From: Mariniflexile gromovii
Lineage (GTDB): Bacteria; Bacteroidota; Bacteroidia; Flavobacteriales; Flavobacteriaceae
NCBI RefSeq assembly: GCF_017814435.1
Contig: NZ_JAGJCB010000010.1
Location: forward strand, 1-64,000
DNA length: 64,000 nucleotides
Direction: 5' to 3'
A program made the position numbers and the translations under genes. The notes under the pieces were generated by a model, which saw nothing but the letters and a program-made list of their open reading frames with translations, was not told where the DNA came from and did no database searches. Shown here piece after piece: positions 55,052 to 62,836 of this stretch (positions are counted from its first letter, which is position 1; every line of letters starts with the position of its first letter).

Positions 55052-56899
55052 ATGAAATATTTTACATTCATAGGCTTTTTGTTATGCTATCAAATAAGCA
55101 TTTCGCAACATGACAGCATAAACGCCACCTTGCTTTCAAATAAAGTCTATGAAAATGAAAAACGCTTTGAAAATTGCACAAACAAAGCATGCCAGATAAA
55201 AGAATCATTTCTGAATGCGGAATATTTTTTAGAAGAGGATGATATTTTTTCTTCTCAAAACTGGCTAGATAAAACCAAAAACTTGATTTCTTTAAAAGAA
55301 GTTGATACAACAACGGTATTTGTTCACAGCTTACAATCTGAACTTTTCTATTACAACGGGTTGCATCAATTTGCTATAAATGAAGCTGACAAAGCACTTA
55401 TAACCGCCCATAAATTAAAGGACAGCTTACTCATTTCTAATGGCTATTTTTTTAAAGGAATCAATTTAATGGAATTGAACAAGCTAAATGAAGCTGAAAA
55501 GTTCTTGTGGAAATCTAGAAACTTTCAACCAAAAAACGTTCAAAAAACATATTTAAGAAGTTCCATTTTAAACGAACACATTTACAACAACATAGCACAA
55601 TTAAAACAACACCTTAAGCAAACCGACTCTGCAATTTTTTACAACACAAAAGCGTATTGGTATGCCAAAAAAAGCCATAGCAAAAGAGGCATTCCTAATA
55701 CTGAACAAACGTTTGCTCAGATATATTTGGAGCAAAACGACACCGAAAATGCATTGCTCTACTTAAACAAAAGCATACTTTCTGCCCAAAAAAGTAACTA
55801 TTTTGATGTTGTGTTGGTCAACTACGGTCTTATGCTGCATTGTTACCTTAATAATGAGGAAAAAACAAATTTATGGTTTCAAAAAGCACTTGATTTAATA
55901 AACGAAAAGAAGATAAATATAACCTATCAAACGTATTTTTATGAAATAGCTATAAAAGCCTTCAAAAAAAGCAACCAAGTAAAAAACTTAACCTTTGCAC
56001 AAGACAAATTAATTAGAATCAACGAAGATATTTCCTTAATAAACAATAGCTACATTCAAAATATCACCAAGAAATATTTTGAAAATGAAAACAAACTGCT
56101 TAAGCAAGAATTGGATTTAATTAAAAACCAAAGGGAAAAACAGATTTACTTCATTGCCAGTGTTGGTTTAATTATATTTTCTTTGGGCATTTGGTTTTTC
56201 TTTATACAGAAACAAAAAATCAAGAACAAAGAAATCATTACACTACAACAACAAAAAGAAATTGCCAAATTAGAAGCCTTAATGGATGGCGAAGAAAAAG
56301 AACGCATGCGTTTAGCGCAGGATTTGCACGATGGCATCAATGGCGATTTATCATACATAAAATACCATCTATCAAGCATTGAATACGAATCATTATCAAA
56401 TGAAAACAAAACCCTTTTCGACAAGTCGATTGATATGATTGACTATTCATGTGACCAAGTTCGAAACATATCACACAACCTTTCACCAACCACCATTAAT
56501 GATTTTGGACTTATAACTTCCCTGAAAAATTACTGCAATAAACTTGAGGGCTTTCATCCTATAAAAATAAATTTTCAACACTTTGGAAATGACATCAAAC
56601 TATCAAAAAACATAGAAACTGTTATTTATAGGATTATACAAGAACTGGTTAACAACATCATAAAACACGCCGATGCTTCTGAAGCTGTCGTTCAAATAAA
56701 TTCATATGATGACAACCTATTTATCACTGTTGAAGATAACGGAAAGGGATTTGAAAGTTCTCAAAAAAACGCTGGTATTGGATTGAAAAACATTGCATCA
56801 CGTATTGCTTTTTTAAACGCAACACTTGAAGAAGAACACAACGCAAATGGCACTACCTTTACCATTAACATAGATTTAAACAACATTCCAAAAACATGA
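55052..56899 (+). CDS. Sensor histidine kinase, NarL/DegS-type, with TPR sensor
   Basis: 615 residues. A signal-like N-terminus, a helical TPR-type periplasmic region (about 25-350), one membrane segment (about 366-386, FIASVGLIIFSLGIWFFFI), then a HisKA_3 dimerisation helix with His426 in LAQDLHDGINGDLSYIK and a HATPase domain (ELVNNIIKHADASEAVV, VEDNGKGF, GIGLKNIASR). It autophosphorylates and passes phosphate to the regulator encoded next, which it overlaps by 4 bases. The signal is unknown. Confidence 0.92.
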   Translation: MKYFTFIGFLLCYQISISQHDSINATLLSNKVYENEKRFENCTNKACQIKESFLNAEYFLEEDDIFSSQNWLDKTKNLISLKEVDTTTVFVHSLQSELFYYNGLHQFAINEADKALITAHKLKDSLLISNGYFFKGINLMELNKLNEAEKFLWKSRNFQPKNVQKTYLRSSILNEHIYNNIAQLKQHLKQTDSAIFYNTKAYWYAKKSHSKRGIPNTEQTFAQIYLEQNDTENALLYLNKSILSAQKSNYFDVVLVNYGLMLHCYLNNEEKTNLWFQKALDLINEKKINITYQTYFYEIAIKAFKKSNQVKNLTFAQDKLIRINEDISLINNSYIQNITKKYFENENKLLKQELDLIKNQREKQIYFIASVGLIIFSLGIWFFFIQKQKIKNKEIITLQQQKEIAKLEALMDGEEKERMRLAQDLHDGINGDLSYIKYHLSSIEYESLSNENKTLFDKSIDMIDYSCDQVRNISHNLSPTTINDFGLITSLKNYCNKLEGFHPIKINFQHFGNDIKLSKNIETVIYRIIQELVNNIIKHADASEAVVQINSYDDNLFITVEDNGKGFESSQKNAGIGLKNIASRIAFLNATLEEEHNANGTTFTINIDLNNIPKT

Positions 56900-57531
56900 T
56901 AACTGCAGCTATAACAGACGACCATATTATGGTAGTTGAGGGTTTAAAAACCATGTTAAAACAAGTTGAAGACATTCAAATTATCAACACGTACCATTGT
57001 GTAAATGATACCGTTGATGGCCTACAAACCACACTACCAGAAGTTTTGTTATTAGATATAAACCTACCCGATGGCAACGGCATTCATTTATGCAAACAAC
57101 TTAAAGACACGTATAAGGAGCTAAAAATTATTGCCTTGTCCAATTACGAAGACATTTCATTCATCAAACAAATTATTAAAAATGGCGCCTCTGGATATTT
57201 GCTAAAAAACACCAATAAAACAGAGTTGATCAACGCTATAAAAGCCGTAAAAAATAACCAATTATTTCTACCGGAAAAACTTCAACGCATGCTTCTTAAC
57301 GATTCATTAGGAAAACCAACCAACAGCTCGTTTTTCATTCCAACATTAACCAGACGTGAAAAAGAAGTTTTAGAATTAATCATTAAAGAACACACTACCG
57401 AAGAAATTGCAACCCTATTATTCATCACTTCAAAAACCGTAGAAGCGCACCGTAGCAATCTTATTCAAAAATTAGAAGTAAAAAATGTTGCAGGATTGGT
57501 TAGAGTTGCTATTGAAAAAGGATTGATTTAA
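56896..57531 (+). CDS. LuxR/NarL-type response regulator
   Basis: 211 residues. Receiver domain with acidic DD at residues 8-9, phospho-acceptor Asp54 in LLLDINLPDGNG and a Lys in YLLKNTNK. The C-terminal LuxR helix-turn-helix reads LTRREKEVLELIIKEHTTEEIATLL followed by FITSKTVEAHRSNLIQKL. It overlaps the kinase gene (ATGA). Targets are unknown; the two exported protein genes upstream on the same strand are candidates. Confidence 0.94.
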   Translation: MITAAITDDHIMVVEGLKTMLKQVEDIQIINTYHCVNDTVDGLQTTLPEVLLLDINLPDGNGIHLCKQLKDTYKELKIIALSNYEDISFIKQIIKNGASGYLLKNTNKTELINAIKAVKNNQLFLPEKLQRMLLNDSLGKPTNSSFFIPTLTRREKEVLELIIKEHTTEEIATLLFITSKTVEAHRSNLIQKLEVKNVAGLVRVAIEKGLI

Positions 57532-57657: not shown

Positions 57658-57684
57658 TTGATATGTTATTTCTGTATATATTTG
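57658..57684 (+). promoter_or_regulatory. Promoter of the gat operon
   Basis: TATATTTG (-7) at 57677-57684 with TTG at 57658-57660. The start of transcription would be near 57690, so the leader ORF at 57703 is only about 13 bases into the transcript. Confidence 0.6.
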
Positions 57685-57702
57685 GCATGTAAAAAAACAA
57701 CC

Positions 57703-57747
57703 ATGTTAAATAACAACAATAATAATTTCAATAATCCTAATTTTTAG
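57703..57747 (+). CDS. Asn-rich leader peptide of the gat operon
   Basis: A 14-codon frame, MLNNNNNNFNNPNF then TAG. Nine of its 14 codons specify Asn (six in a row). The ATG follows an A-rich stretch (AAAAAAACAACC), usual for ribosome binding in this phylum, and a perfect -7 box lies upstream. The stop codon is 3 bases before the first arm of the antiterminator at 57751. This is the design of amino-acid attenuator leaders, where stalling on hungry codons lets the operon be read. Here the sensed species would be Asn-tRNA(Asn). Confidence 0.75.
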   Translation: MLNNNNNNFNNPNF

Positions 57748-57750
57748 GGT

Positions 57751-57807
57751 TCGGAAGGTTATTGTTTAAAAATATATAAAGCCTTCCGATTGTGGAAGGC
57801 TTTTTTT
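57751..57807 (+). promoter_or_regulatory. Transcription attenuator of the gat operon (antiterminator/terminator pair)
   Basis: Arm 1 (57751-57760, TCGGAAGGTT) can pair with arm 2 (57780-57789, AGCCTTCCGA): eight Watson-Crick pairs, one G-T and one T-A. Arm 2 can instead pair with arm 3 (AAAGCCTTCC with GGAAGGCTTT, 57778-57787 and 57794-57803), a 10-bp stem with a GATTGT loop that is followed by T residues to 57807 and is a strong intrinsic terminator. The two structures share arm 2 and exclude each other. A ribosome at the leader stop codon would cover arm 1 and favour termination. A ribosome stalled on the Asn codons would leave arm 1 free and favour read-through into gatC. Confidence 0.8.
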
Positions 57808-57825
57808 AATTTAAAACTATTAGAA

Positions 57826-58095
57826 ATGAGTAAAATTATGACAGTCGACGTATTGTCGAGTATTAAAGGAGCACAACCCAGTGAGGCGGTGAACAAGTTA
57901 TTTGAGGTTATTAAAAATGCACAACCTACAAATAATAATTCTTTTAATATTAATCATAATAATAACGTGTCTTTAAACGATTTAAGAGACGACGTAGTGA
58001 TTGAAAGTTCTGCATTGGAAAAGCAAATCATTATTGAAAATTTTCCGAAAGAGAAAAAAGGCTATTTAGTGGTTTCTAAAGTTATAGAAGAATAA
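57826..58095 (+). CDS. gatC: Divergent GatC-like subunit of the aminoacyl-tRNA amidotransferase
   Basis: 89 residues from the ATG at 57826. Its C-terminal half (LNDLRDDVVIESSALEKQ then GYLVVSKVIEE) follows the pattern of the GatC tail (LRED, a helix, then GxxxVPKVI). The N-terminal half lacks the usual IAKLARLEL helix motif. It is instead a short helix region and an Asn-rich stretch (NNNSFNINHNNN, about residues 44-55). In GatCAB, GatC wraps between GatA and GatB. It lies 2 bases before gatA and behind the attenuator, which supports the assignment. An earlier in-frame ATG at 57790 lies inside the terminator hairpin and is unlikely. Confidence 0.65.
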   Translation: MSKIMTVDVLSSIKGAQPSEAVNKLFEVIKNAQPTNNNSFNINHNNNVSLNDLRDDVVIESSALEKQIIIENFPKEKKGYLVVSKVIEE

Positions 58096-58097
58096 TT

Positions 58098-59498
58098 ATG
58101 GAATCTCAGATACACAAAATACACCAACAACTGGTGAACAAAGAAATTACTTGTACAAGCTTGGTACAAGAAAAACTGAACTTATTAAAAGCCAATACCA
58201 ACAACACCGTAAACACTTTATTAGATACCTTGGCGTTAGATTTAGCCGCCAAAGTAGATGCTAAAATTGCAAATGGCGAAACCATTGGTTTATTAGAAGG
58301 CATCCCGTTTGGTATTAAAGATGTGTACATGGTACAGGGTACTTACACTACGGCGAGTTCAGATTTGCTTAAAAATTATAAATCGGCCTACACCGCCACG
58401 GCCATTCAAAAATTATTGGATGCAGGTGCTATTCCGTTAGTAAAAGAAAATTGTGATAGTTTTGGTCATGGTTCTTCTAGTGAAAACACCATTTTTGGCG
58501 CTGTTAAAAACGCCATTAACCCCGATTTAGTGGGTGGTGGTTCCAGTGGTGGTTCCGCGGTCAATGTGGCCAAAGATTACACCGTTTTTTCTATTGGAGG
58601 CGATACCGGTGGTTCCGTGCGCCAACCTGCGGGTTACAACCATGTATATGGATTAAAACCAACTTACGGGCGTATTTCCCGCTACGGATTGATGGCCTAC
58701 GCATCTTCTACCGATTGTGTGGGACCTATCGCTAAATCCATTGAAGATATTCGTATTGTGTTGAATGTGATGAGCGGTAAAGACGCGAAAGATCAAACTA
58801 CATACGCTTCCGCCGAAATTAAAGAAGCAAGTATCTCAAATTCAAACGGTATTAAAACCATCGGATATTTTAAAAATTTCGTTGAAAGCGATGCGATCGA
58901 CCCAAAAATTAAAGCTGATTTTTTAGCAACTATTGAAAAAATAAAAGCCAAAGGCATTGAAGTAAAAGAGTTGGATTTCTTTAAATCGGATATTTTAGTT
59001 TCAACCTATTACACCTTGGCAATGGCTGAAACGGCTTCTAACCTATCACGATTGGATGGTAGCAACTACGGAAACCGCATTGAAGATAAAAACCTTAAAG
59101 AATCTTACGCTGTAACGCGTTCAGAGAATTTTTCAGAAGAAACCAAACGACGTATTGTGGGTGGTAACCAAGTATTATCTCAAGGGTTTTCAGATGAAAT
59201 TTATTTAAAAGGTTTAGCGCTTCGTGATGCTATTTCAGAAAATTTTGAAAACGATTTTAAAGAGGTTGATATAATTTTATCTCCGGTTACACCAAGTACA
59301 CCTCCAAAAATTGGAGATAGTTTAAAAGACCCACACGCTATGTATTTAAGCGATGCTTATACGGTTGGGTTTAGCTTAGGGCAACTGCCAACGCTTACCG
59401 CTCCACAAGGCACCGAAACAGGCGTACAAATTACAGCCGCTAAAAATAACGACGAACTTGTTTTGAAGTTTGCTAACTTCTTAAAAGACACGATATAA
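58098..59498 (+). CDS. gatA: Asp-tRNA(Asn)/Glu-tRNA(Gln) amidotransferase subunit A
   Basis: 466 residues, slightly short for GatA. The amidase catalytic triad is present: Lys74 in GIPFGIKD, the cis-Ser at about 149 in GGGSSGGSAVN and the nucleophile Ser173 in GGDTGGSVRQPAG. GatA releases ammonia from glutamine for transfer to the misacylated tRNA on GatB. The stop codon overlaps the gatB start (TAATG), so the two are translationally coupled. Confidence 0.95.
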   Translation: MESQIHKIHQQLVNKEITCTSLVQEKLNLLKANTNNTVNTLLDTLALDLAAKVDAKIANGETIGLLEGIPFGIKDVYMVQGTYTTASSDLLKNYKSAYTATAIQKLLDAGAIPLVKENCDSFGHGSSSENTIFGAVKNAINPDLVGGGSSGGSAVNVAKDYTVFSIGGDTGGSVRQPAGYNHVYGLKPTYGRISRYGLMAYASSTDCVGPIAKSIEDIRIVLNVMSGKDAKDQTTYASAEIKEASISNSNGIKTIGYFKNFVESDAIDPKIKADFLATIEKIKAKGIEVKELDFFKSDILVSTYYTLAMAETASNLSRLDGSNYGNRIEDKNLKESYAVTRSENFSEETKRRIVGGNQVLSQGFSDEIYLKGLALRDAISENFENDFKEVDIILSPVTPSTPPKIGDSLKDPHAMYLSDAYTVGFSLGQLPTLTAPQGTETGVQITAAKNNDELVLKFANFLKDTI

Positions 59499-62400
59499 TG
59501 GAATTAGAGCAATTAGACGCAGCACTTAAAGCACACGATTTAGAGTTAGTAATCGGACTGGAAACACACGTTCGATTAAATACCAAAACCAAATTATTTT
59601 GTTCTTGCCCAAACCAAGAGATTGAAACCCCAAACCAAAACATTTGTTCGGTTTGTACCGGGCAAATGGGCGTTTTACCTGCCATTAATAAAGAAGCCAT
59701 TACCAAGGCTATTTATTTTGGGAAAGCGGTAAAATCATCGTTTGAAAATGAAGTAATTTCTTGGGACAGAAAGCATTACGAATACCCCGATAACCCGAAA
59801 AATATTCAAATTACGCAGTTTCACAACCCTGTGATTCCTGATGGTCAAGTGTCTTGTTTCCGTAACGATGGAAGTCAGTTTACGGTAAATTTAACCCAAG
59901 TTCATATTGAAGAAGATGCCGCTAAATTGATGCACGAAAAAACGGTTTCGTTGGTCGATTTCAACAAAGCCGGTGTACCATTAATTGAAATTGTAACCGA
60001 ACCATGCATTCGCCATATTGAAGATGCTTCTATTTACGCACAATACATTCAACGTATTGTTCAAAATTTAAAAATATCGGAGGCTAATCTTGAAAAAGGT
60101 GAGTTTAAATCGGATGTTTCGGTATCGCTTCGTAAAAAACACAGTTACACGTTAAACCCACGTACGGAGATCAAAAACTTAAACTCGTTTAAGTTTATGG
60201 TGGACGCTTTAAAGGAAGAAGTTGAAAAACAACTTAACTATTTCTTAGAGCATAAAGAATTTAGACCCGACCAAACCACGGTTTTATGGGATGCCGATTT
60301 AAAGCAAACCAAAACCATGCGTAAAAAGGAATTTGAGGCCGATTACCGTTTTATTTCGGAACCCGATTTACCCTTTGTAAACATTAAAGAAGCTGTTGAA
60401 GCCATTAAAGTAGATACCAGAACACTTCCTTTTGCGGTAGAATCTATTTTGATAAACGGTGGCGTATTACCACAAGATGCCAAATTCTTTACCGCCGATT
60501 CGTTACGCTCGGAAACCTTCGTTGCGATTCATAATGAATTGAACGATGCCTCGTTTGTTGCAAAAACTTTATCAAACAATATAAAACCAGAGGAATACGC
60601 CCAAATTCAAAATATTCAAGATTTTATTGAGATTTTCAAAAGTTTCAAAGAAGAAAAAGTAACGGTTGTATTGGTTCAAAATGCCATTAAATCATTGTTG
60701 GCCGATGCTACGTTTGATTATAAAAGCTATTTTGAAGCCAACACCATTTCCGAAGAAAAAATCTACGATGCCATCGCCAAAGTTATTTCAGAAAATGAAG
60801 CGATTGCCAACGACATTAAAGCTGGAAACCAAGGAAAAGCAGGTATTTTAGTTGGAAAAATTATTGCGATTATTGGAAAAGGTGCGTCGGGGAAAGTAAT
60901 TCGTGAGGGAATTTTGAGTCAGTTAGCGGGGGGAAATGACGGAAGTACGAAGACTGAAGACGGAAGCGATGAAAAGCCAAAAGCCAAAAGTCAAAAGCAA
61001 GAAGCTAAAGATGAAGAAGTATTACCTCAAATTCCCATCATTGTAAAAGAAGAATACAGAACGCATTTAATTTCGGGTATTTCTGAAGCTAACATTTCAG
61101 AAAAAGTAACCTTTGCAGGTTGGGTATCTAGTGTACGCGACCATGGTGAATTGATTTTTATAGATTTACGCGATTCGAGTACTGAAGTATTCCAAGTGCG
61201 TTTAAGTAGAGAATCGTTCCCTAATTTGGACGAATTGGTGAAGTTAAAACCAGAGTCTGTAATAACAGTTTCAGGCACCATCGTACAACGTAAAGAAGAC
61301 GATTATAACACGGCGTTACGTACTGGAAAAATAGAATTGGAAGCGAACGAACTGGATATTTTAAACCTATCTAGAACCTTACCTTTTGAAATAAAACGTG
61401 CGACCAAAACCAACGAAAACACCCGTTTTCAATACAAGTATTTAGACCATAGAAATGACGATGTACGTCGTGTGATTGTTAACCGTCATAAAGTGATCAA
61501 ACTTCTGCGCGATATTTTAGATGAAGAACATTTCTTGGAAATTGAAACACCTATTTTAAGTGCGGGAACTGATGAAGGTGCACGCGAATTTATAGTACCT
61601 ACCCGTAAACAACCGGGTGCATTTTACACCTTGCCGCAAGCACCTCAACAATTCAAACAAATGTTGATGGTAAGTGGTTATGAAAAGTATTTCCAAATTG
61701 CACGTTGTTTTAGAGATGAAGATTCTCGTGGTGATCGCCAACCGGAATTTACGCAGTTGGATATCGAAATGGCTTATGCCAGCATGCAACAAATCATCGA
61801 TTTGAACACCAAAATGTTTAATGAGGTGGTAACAAAAATATATGGTAACAAATGGATATTACGTCCGTTTGAAGTGATTACTTACCAAGATGCCATGGAT
61901 TTTTACGGTTGTGATAGACCCGATTTACGTTTCGGTTTAAAACTTCAAGACATTACCAACATTGTAAAAGATACCACGTTCCAAGTGTTTAGTAAACCTA
62001 TTGAAGAAGGTGGTATTGTAAAATGTATTAAGGTTTCGGCTGAAGAACAAGGCAACAAACGTTTATCTAAAGGGCAAATTGAAAAACTTACAGGTATTGC
62101 CCAACAACATGGTTTAGGTGGTTTGGCTTATATTATTGTAAATGAAAACGATTTACAATCGCCTATCATTAAGTTTTTAGGTGAAGATATCGCTGCGGGC
62201 ATTATTAAAGCCACCAATGCGCAAGTAGGCGATATTGTGTTTTTCTCGGCGGCCGATTATACCACTGCCAATAAAGCATTGGATGCAGTACGTCAAGAAC
62301 TTGGTAAAATGTTGCATTTAATCAATCCGAAGGAATTACGCCCTGCGTGGGTAATTGATTTCCCGATGTTTGAAAAAACCGATGAAGGACGCTGGACCTT

Positions 62401-62836
62401 TACCCACAACCCATTCTCAATGCCTGCGGTGTATGATATTGAAAAACACATGAACGGTAAAGAGGAAGAAATAGGAAGCATCATTGCCCAACAATATGAT
62501 TTAATTTTAAACGGTTACGAAATTGGAGGTGGCTCGGTGCGTGCACACAAACCCGAAATTTTAGAAGCTACCTACAAAAACATGGGCTACAACAAAGAAG
62601 AAATGCTAAAAAGTGTTGGCACGATGTATAAAGCCTTCCATTATGGCGCGCCACCACACGGTGGTATTGCATGGGGTGTAGACCGTTTGATGATGATTTT
62701 AGAGAAAAAAGCATCCATACGTGAAGTAATGGCATTCCCAAAAACAGGAACCAGCGAAGATTTATTATTTGGCGCCCCTTCCCTACTTTCTGACAAGAAA
62801 ATTGAAGAAATGAATGTACGTGTTATGAAGAAATAA
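59498..62836 (+). CDS. gatB-aspS: Fusion protein: GatB amidotransferase subunit and aspartyl-tRNA synthetase
   Basis: 1112 residues in one open frame. Residues 1 to about 480 are a full GatB: IGLETHVRLNTKTKLFC, the zinc-type Cys set CSCPNQ...CSVCTG, and a YqeY-like tail (NQGKAGILVGKIIAIIGKGA). A low-complexity linker (about 481-516) follows. Residues 517-1112 are a complete bacterial AspRS: OB-fold anticodon domain (AGWVSSVRDHGELIFIDLRD), class II motifs FLEIETPIL, RCFRDEDSRGDRQPEFTQLD and GGIAWGVDRLMMIL, and a GAD insert. A His in RDHG is at the place that marks non-discriminating AspRS, which also charges tRNA(Asn) with Asp. GatB would then amidate that product, so both steps to Asn-tRNA(Asn) sit on one chain. 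Confidence 0.93.
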   Translation: MELEQLDAALKAHDLELVIGLETHVRLNTKTKLFCSCPNQEIETPNQNICSVCTGQMGVLPAINKEAITKAIYFGKAVKSSFENEVISWDRKHYEYPDNPKNIQITQFHNPVIPDGQVSCFRNDGSQFTVNLTQVHIEEDAAKLMHEKTVSLVDFNKAGVPLIEIVTEPCIRHIEDASIYAQYIQRIVQNLKISEANLEKGEFKSDVSVSLRKKHSYTLNPRTEIKNLNSFKFMVDALKEEVEKQLNYFLEHKEFRPDQTTVLWDADLKQTKTMRKKEFEADYRFISEPDLPFVNIKEAVEAIKVDTRTLPFAVESILINGGVLPQDAKFFTADSLRSETFVAIHNELNDASFVAKTLSNNIKPEEYAQIQNIQDFIEIFKSFKEEKVTVVLVQNAIKSLLADATFDYKSYFEANTISEEKIYDAIAKVISENEAIANDIKAGNQGKAGILVGKIIAIIGKGASGKVIREGILSQLAGGNDGSTKTEDGSDEKPKAKSQKQEAKDEEVLPQIPIIVKEEYRTHLISGISEANISEKVTFAGWVSSVRDHGELIFIDLRDSSTEVFQVRLSRESFPNLDELVKLKPESVITVSGTIVQRKEDDYNTALRTGKIELEANELDILNLSRTLPFEIKRATKTNENTRFQYKYLDHRNDDVRRVIVNRHKVIKLLRDILDEEHFLEIETPILSAGTDEGAREFIVPTRKQPGAFYTLPQAPQQFKQMLMVSGYEKYFQIARCFRDEDSRGDRQPEFTQLDIEMAYASMQQIIDLNTKMFNEVVTKIYGNKWILRPFEVITYQDAMDFYGCDRPDLRFGLKLQDITNIVKDTTFQVFSKPIEEGGIVKCIKVSAEEQGNKRLSKGQIEKLTGIAQQHGLGGLAYIIVNENDLQSPIIKFLGEDIAAGIIKATNAQVGDIVFFSAADYTTANKALDAVRQELGKMLHLINPKELRPAWVIDFPMFEKTDEGRWTFTHNPFSMPAVYDIEKHMNGKEEEIGSIIAQQYDLILNGYEIGGGSVRAHKPEILEATYKNMGYNKEEMLKSVGTMYKAFHYGAPPHGGIAWGVDRLMMILEKKASIREVMAFPKTGTSEDLLFGAPSLLSDKKIEEMNVRVMKK
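60939..61010 (+). repeat. Repeat-like tract encoding the GatB-AspRS linker
   Basis: The DNA reads as GACGGAAG twice with degenerate copies between, then AAAAGCCA, AAAGCCAA and AAAGTCAA words. It has the look of the intergenic tandem repeats in this window and encodes a hydrophilic Lys/Glu/Ser linker. Confidence 0.5.

Follow-up and report, generated by a model that had tools for sequence, protein, structure and literature searches.

Why does a short reading frame made up largely of asparagine codons, followed by a terminator-like hairpin, precede a transamidation operon of Mariniflexile gromovii (Flavobacteriaceae), and is asparagine the signal that it reads? Leader-peptide attenuators of the trp, his and phe operons in Proteobacteria are a textbook mechanism, and the first-pass annotation of the window (the whole stretch of 64,000 nucleotides analysed here) had proposed the same logic for this locus. 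From the analysis described below, the element is considered very likely to be a ribosome-mediated transcription attenuator specific for asparagine, placed on an asparagine biosynthesis operon. This reading is based on the anatomy of the locus, its conservation, the alternative folds of the RNA, the enzyme content of the genomes and the mutual exclusion of the operon with AsnA and AsnB, while we infer the start site, leader translation, the stalling and termination steps and which tRNAs the fused AspRS accepts.

Leader, promoter and genes of the locus

The perfect -7 box and the leader with nine Asn in 14 codons that had been proposed in front of the gat operon were confirmed by reading the sequence directly (Table 1). 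The leader is a short ORF rich in the codons of the operon's amino acid (nine Asn codons among 14 residues), and the box upstream of it follows the TAnnTTTG consensus reported for the -7 box (PMC7366714), with a possible TTG further upstream at 57658-57660. On both strands of the window, it is the sole ATG-initiated ORF of at most 25 amino acids with at least six Asn and at least 40% Asn. In 200 first-order Markov windows, three ORFs matched these limits, none of them followed by a strong terminator, and an ORF with nine Asn did not occur at all; a chance ORF in AT-rich DNA was therefore rejected as an explanation. Rejected as well was a T-box or other catalogued RNA at the leader: scanning the window against Rfam at gathering thresholds returned only a tRNA at 588-662 and no T-box.

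Table 1 Features of the leader region and the operon, in window positions
Feature	Position	Strand	Description	Basis
Promoter -7 box TATATTTG	57677-57684	+	consensus TAnnTTTG	sequence
Leader peptide ORF MLNNNNNNFNNPNF	57703-57747	+	ATG at 57703, stop UAG 57745-57747	sequence
Arm 1	57715-57729	+	Asn codons 57715-57723 (and 57726-57729)	folding; position-specific synonymous codons
Protector hairpin	57715-57723 with 57758-57766, plus 57726-57729 with 57753-57756	+		folding
Small hairpin across stop codon	57733-57751	+	57733-57740 with 57744-57751	folding
Arm 2	57751-57766	+	antiterminator 5' side 57751-57760; protector 3' side 57753-57756, 57758-57766	folding, pairing counts
Arm 3	57780-57789	+	antiterminator 3' side; overlaps terminator 5' side 57778-57787	folding, pairing counts
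Intrinsic terminator	57778-57807	+	57778-57787 with 57794-57803; U-run 57801-57807	folding
gatC	57826-58095	+	89 aa, divergent	operon position and weak similarity
gatA, amidotransferase subunit A	58098-59498	+		Amidase PF01425, 378 bits (cut-off 27)
gatB-aspS fusion	59498-62836	+	1112 aa, single ORF	GatB joined to bacterial-type AspRS

Regarding the operon itself, the annotated gene order gatC-gatA-gatB/aspS stood, except that gatB and aspS are one fused ORF. The first gene encodes a GatC-like protein that, scored from its second codon, remains below the cut-offs of both family models (21.4 vs 23 bits for PF02686, 20.7 vs 47.1 bits for TIGR00135); it also contains an Asn-rich stretch (NNNSFNINHNNN), which varies among relatives. 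GatA reaches 427.6 bits with TIGR00132, which is under the cut-off of 481.1 yet its best NCBIfam match. Of the fusion, the GatB part scores 387.4 bits with NF004012 (cut-off 338) and the AspRS part 643 bits with TIGR00459 (cut-off 373.85). The complete fused ORF of 1109-1121 amino acids was found in 74 of 80 titled loci, the other six not being seen complete. The fused AspRS displays an RDHG loop, with His in all 75 loci where the RDxG loop was reached, whereas the stand-alone AspRS of the same genome has RDKG. A His in this anticodon-binding loop is, as we take it from work on the Pseudomonas AspRS, the mark of a non-discriminating enzyme; judged by this residue, the fused AspRS is probably non-discriminating as well. 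Together with GatA and GatC, the fusion would then form a self-contained set for tRNA-dependent asparagine synthesis, producing Asn on tRNA(Asn) from Asp.

Occurrence of the leader among Flavobacteriaceae

As a check on the attenuator, the first-pass annotation had suggested aligning the region upstream of gatC in related genomes, where conserved Asn runs and compensatory changes in the arms would support it. Searching genome contigs that carry titles for GatC yielded 204 relatives, and the best 80 of them were retained; nearly all titles name Flavobacteriaceae or its genera, two a broader group only. Of the 397 genomes sampled within the family, 58 contain a GatA of the operon type (E <= 1e-60, at most four candidates scored per genome). 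With three genomes added (G001, G004, G005), 61 were available, and a leader precedes the operon in 37 of their 60 upstream regions, that of G197 being cut by a contig end. Overall, 140 loci gave 114 distinct gatC upstream regions (differing in the last 150 bases before gatC), 70 of which carry the leader, each with a -7 box that ends 10-23 bases before the leader start. Hence, the conserved Asn run was indeed found. As the leaders were detected by the ORF criterion, their frame and Asn richness hold partly by construction; besides, the 70 sequences are related and some nearly identical.

The leader occurs in loci of Confluentibacter, Aestuariibaculum, Aestuariivivens, Tamlana, Seonamhaeicola and Flavivirga as well as in most, though not all, of those from Mariniflexile and Polaribacter. 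A quickly built GatA tree covers 100 of the 114 and has many weak branches. On it, all seven Flavobacterium-titled and six Lutibacter-titled loci are leaderless, and the history of the leader requires at least 16 changes compared to a mean of 28.9 in 500 shuffles, none of which was as low. The operon can evidently live without its leader, since 44 of the 114 regions are leaderless, and in 42 of the 44 a different promoter-like motif lies near gatC. No match to a loose terminator or arm 2 pattern was obtained in these 44 regions; the Asn-Phe stretch was matched in five of them at up to four edits, as AT-rich DNA may do. A covariance model recovered the leader at gatC in 26 of the 52 genomes given, with at least 97 bits, while the other matches listed reached at most 48.6 bits and one of them, at 36.3 bits, led to asnA. 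The best of the listed matches away from gatC (in G012) was dismissed as a further copy of the leader, being a terminator between other genes.

This distribution also bears on an alternative in which the hairpin does no more than end transcription of the upstream response-regulator gene, the ORF having arisen by chance. Such a gene does lie on the same strand (56896-57531), and AAT and AAC codons arise easily in AT-rich DNA. Recurrence of box, ORF and arms in 70 upstream regions, together with the Markov control and the 20 asnB regions described below, nevertheless makes this explanation barely credible, and a chance origin of the leader is already excluded by its conservation.

Alternative hairpins and the order of folding

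Downstream of the leader codons, an antiterminator (57751-57760 with 57780-57789) and a terminator with T-run (57778-57807) had been described as alternatives, and folding of the window reproduced both. The antiterminator, a helix of 10 bp, forms in the stretch 57730-57790 (-19.9 kcal/mol, z -4.4) and the terminator in 57759-57812 (-15.4 kcal/mol, z -3.9), with neither value equalled in 200 shuffles. The two hairpins are mutually exclusive, and arm 2 lies just behind the stop codon. A further pairing, missing from the first-pass annotation, joins arm 1 and arm 2, i.e., the Asn codons themselves (57715-57723) with 57758-57766; with the hairpin across the stop codon, it constitutes the classical 1:2 'protector' by folding. 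Folded as a whole, the leader adopts protector plus terminator.

In the proposed mechanism, transcription would start a few bases past 57684 and the leader would then be translated. A shortage of charged Asn-tRNA would make the ribosome stall on the Asn run and so block the protector, whereupon arms 2 and 3 could pair as the polymerase advances and gatC-gatA-gatBaspS would be transcribed. With plentiful Asn-tRNA, a ribosome at the UAG would cover arm 2, leaving arms 3 and 4 to terminate transcription.

Using ribosome footprints that are assumptions, the behaviour predicted for this switch is obtained in all 70 leaders: with the Asn codons occupied, the antiterminator is the optimal structure as long as arm 4 has yet to be made, and with the ribosome moved to the stop, the downstream stretch folds into the terminator. 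With nothing bound and the leader present up to arm 3, the antiterminator is favoured in 66 of 70, so that dominance of the protector is not clear. For the complete leader, the more stable fold is the terminator in 67 of 70, a stalled ribosome notwithstanding, and the attenuation model thus depends on the order and timing of folding.

As arm 4 is out of place in those rows of a MAFFT alignment whose loops are longer, a script was used to count pairs in the unaligned sequences. With the best register chosen per sequence, which favours pairing, each of nine terminator stem positions is paired in 68-70 of the 70 leaders, and the eight antiterminator pairs persist in 65-70. In 68 of 70 leaders, the distance between the initial base of the stop codon and the antiterminator base counted first is 6-8 bases. 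Of the compensatory changes looked for in the arms, two-sided ones were found at two terminator pairs (G-C to A-U in five leaders, A-U to G-C in one), both positions being free of mismatches; covariation is sparse overall, and arm 3 is constrained by two partners. In the hairpin across the stop codon, the CCUA:UAGG pairs are kept in 69-70 of 70, with C-G replaced by U-A in two closely related sequences. Here, the leader UAG and its next base pair with the CCUA at the Pro codon; this stop is UAG in 69 of 70 leaders, compared to UAA in 55 of 70 gatC genes of the same loci.

Asparagine codons as the probable signal

If the RNA hairpins are conserved, the Asn codons could be kept solely for their pairing with arm 2, the terminator being constitutive or controlled otherwise. 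The choice of codons does point to such pairing. Counted from the Phe that served as anchor for lining up the leaders (found in 70 of 70), the Asn codon is AAC at position -4 in 61 of 70 leaders and AAT at -1 and +2 in all 70, compared to 30% AAC among the Asn codons of gatC at these loci (221 of 736); in addition, Phe is encoded by TTC in 69 and Pro by CCT in 67 of 70. The codons of the protector stem are thus fixed by pairing. Outside the paired stretch, however, Asn persists at -5 in 67 leaders (38 AAT and 29 AAC) and at -6 in 59, again with AAT and AAC both used. Since both codons are in use at -5, Asn appears to be selected there as an amino acid. Moreover, unrelated Asn-rich leaders also precede asnA, as outlined below. 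Conservation for pairing alone is hence regarded as improbable. Stalling on Asn codons, the logic originally suggested for the switch, agrees with the folding in 70 of 70 leaders, with the retention of Asn by means of either codon and with the two-sided changes in the terminator.

Of the 70 leaders, 11, mostly from Polaribacter, have CGT (Arg) in place of the Asn codon at the second position before Phe (L067, L096, L107, L128, L135, L138, L144, L156, L159, L162, L163). Ten of these 11 have a G in arm 2 where most leaders have A, and the replacement may reflect shared descent or pairing.

The nearly invariant residues of the leader raise another option, namely that the FNNPN peptide acts by nascent-chain arrest and senses free asparagine instead of a lack of Asn-tRNA. 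Phe (70 of 70, as anchor) and Pro (67 of 70) would fit this. On the RNA level, though, the Pro codon (CCU) is paired to the UAGG at the stop, two closely related sequences show Ser instead of Pro with a matching G-to-A, and the FxNP motif is missing from all asnA leaders. Arrest by the peptide itself is therefore judged very improbable, and stalling for want of charged Asn-tRNA is retained as the preferred reading.

Asn-rich leaders before asnA

Upstream regions of the two ordinary asparagine synthetase genes were inspected in hand-chosen sets, comprising 19 of the 28 genomes with AsnA and 20 of the 297 with AsnB. An Asn-rich leader with a terminator precedes asnA in eight of the 19 regions (L198, L200, L202, L206, L207, L208, L209, L211) and is absent from the other 11. 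None of the 20 asnB regions has a leader with terminator; one contains a loose short ORF with three or four scattered Asn and no terminator. The asnA leaders are, by eye, unrelated in sequence to the gatC leader, and FxNP occurs in none of them. Six of the eight regions read as tandem arrangements of two leaders, both followed by a separate terminator (for the first leader of L206, the assignment was made by eye). Folding of 14 asnA leaders yielded the antiterminator in 12 with the ribosome stalled and the terminator in 13 with the ribosome at the stop; the second leaders of L198, L209 and L211 extend beyond arm 3 and fit the model poorly. From their sequences, the asnA leaders are most likely an independently built counterpart of the gatC attenuator, and they would lend independent support to asparagine as the signal.

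Probable asparagine route of the operon-bearing genomes

The operon had been annotated as the maker of Asn-tRNA(Asn). Its transamidation genes are present, but it is not the sole source, as the genome of M. gromovii also encodes AsnRS, next to GlnRS and the second, stand-alone AspRS. A need of the operon for Gln-tRNA was discarded, too: GlnRS exceeds its cut-off in all 80 genomes given, so Gln-tRNA does not need GatCAB. Given AsnRS and GlnRS in the same cell, the operon is better seen as asparagine biosynthesis than as tRNA charging. The tRNA(Asn) of this genome (anticodon GUU) has U1-A72, which proved uninformative as an operon marker; it was read by eye in 27 of 28 genomes, the remaining sequence not being recovered, and occurs also where the operon is missing.

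Neither AsnA nor an AsnB over the equivalog cut-off was found in the genome of M. gromovii, which does encode one AsnB-like protein of another kind (316 vs 499 bits), neighboured by glycosyltransferases as judged by eye. Across the 397 genomes of the family, true AsnB occurs in 297 (at most three candidates scored per genome), AsnA in 28 (27 over cut-off) and the operon in 58. AsnB or AsnA accompanies the operon in 0 of 58 genomes, compared to 310 of the 339 others (p = 3.5e-48, ignoring phylogeny and based on hand-copied lists). All three are missing in 29 of the 397 genomes, which may be incomplete, auxotrophic or equipped with another route. Gene content and this exclusion are in line with an operon that would provide the amino acid being sensed or the corresponding aminoacyl-tRNA. 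With no AsnA or AsnB proper beside it, the operon is most likely the asparagine biosynthesis route of these genomes, in which case the attenuator would exert end-product control.

A different division of labour is conceivable, with genuine Asn attenuation of an operon that mainly serves tRNA charging or repair, while asparagine stems from uptake or from AsnB-like paralogs. Proteins of the AsnB family pass the general TIGR01536 cut-off in 23 of the 58 operon-bearing genomes, M. gromovii included, and in 21 of 22 other genomes given. None of the 58 passes the cut-off for true AsnB, though, the operon never coincides with true AsnB or AsnA, and 35 of the 58 are devoid of an AsnB-family protein even at the general cut-off. 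Hence, this division of labour is deemed unlikely, and asparagine biosynthesis remains the preferred role of the operon.

AsnRS is over its cut-off in 385 of the 397 genomes. In four genomes of at least 99% completeness (G207, G255, G264 and G409, with loci L080, L078, L068 and L079), no match to the AsnRS model better than about 1e-28 was obtained. The operon is present in each of them and so would appear able to stand in for AsnRS; the leader is absent from each of them. In G065 (99% complete, about 320 contigs, no operon), the best AsnRS match is 2.7e-54, and in G298 (76% complete) the leader is present without a real match to AsnRS. For a possible link between loss of the leader and loss of AsnRS, Fisher's test gave p 0.020 without G298 and p 0.067 with it (G001, G004 and G005 left aside, relatedness uncorrected and two of the four AsnRS-less genomes sharing a genus).

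Taken together, a broader picture for the Flavobacteriaceae is held to be rather likely, if less firmly than the attenuator itself. Asn-codon attenuators would switch whichever asparagine route a genome owns, as a conserved element at the GatCAB-AspRS fusion and as independent, often tandem elements at AsnA. The fusion pathway would have taken the place of AsnB and, where AsnRS was lost, become the only source of Asn-tRNA, the attenuator being gone from such genomes.

Implications

If the reading is correct, asparagine joins the amino acids sensed by ribosome-mediated attenuation, in a phylum for which little has been found on such control, and attenuation becomes tied to an enzyme system that builds an amino acid on its tRNA. 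The exclusion of AsnA and AsnB suggests that a fused AspRS-amidotransferase displaced the usual asparagine synthetase across part of a large and often marine family; for testing this displacement, the attenuator offers a possible readout of Asn-tRNA. With the leader present, absent or, at asnA, in tandem among relatives that include many named isolates, the evolution of an attenuator should become observable.

Comparison with known systems

To our knowledge, asparagine has not been recognized before as a specificity of leader attenuation. In limited searches of open-licence literature, control by an Asn-codon leader was not the subject of any title or abstract listed, and no paper on a GatB-AspRS fusion in Bacteroidetes was retrieved. 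The claim that such an attenuator is undescribed thus holds for the Asn leader, while parallels are known from a clostridial T-box and from clues in Flavobacterium.

The Asn/Glu T-box of Clostridium acetobutylicum was reportedly worked on by Saad et al. in 2012 and 2013. Sensing tRNA(Asn) and tRNA(Glu), it precedes a transamidation operon (PMC4052509), and as in the present case tRNA(Asn) decides on termination in front of the genes, but by direct tRNA binding and without a leader peptide. A survey of 2008 lists no T-box in seven Bacteroidetes/Chlorobi genomes (PMC2494555).

On the enzyme side, Deinococcus radiodurans and Thermus thermophilus possess a second AspRS and GatCAB beside AsnRS (PMC4206432). 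They share AsnRS, GlnRS, GatCAB, a second AspRS and the lack of AsnA and AsnB with the genomes discussed here; their second AspRS is of archaeal type with no fusion described, however, in contrast to the bacterial-type, GatB-fused enzyme. The same 2014 survey counts Bacteroidetes among the genera with AsnRS, GlnRS and GatCAB but without Asn synthetase; in the parts consulted it places a second AspRS within that group only in Deinococcus-Thermus and does not mention a GatB-AspRS fusion, and the word 'leader' is absent from its main text.

Within the family, clues to leader-peptide attenuation have been reported for Flavobacterium psychrophilum (PMC9723704), where leader peptides likewise precede amino-acid biosynthesis operons; the section on 5' regulatory RNAs in that 2021 paper names no Asn, gat or asn gene. 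According to a survey of 2010, attenuation is known from Proteobacteria and Actinobacteria and reported in Firmicutes (PMC2965389), and a model of the process has been presented by Elf and Ehrenberg (PMC1183508).

What is found here appears to be this known mechanism, leader-peptide attenuation, applied to an amino acid for which no such switch was found described. With the trp, his and phe attenuators, it has in common a leader peptide in which the regulated amino acid abounds, a choice between antiterminator and terminator hairpins and matching biosynthesis genes. It differs from them in its Asn codons, in its operon for tRNA-dependent amidation and in its occurrence in Bacteroidota, the likeness being one of design with no relation in sequence claimed.
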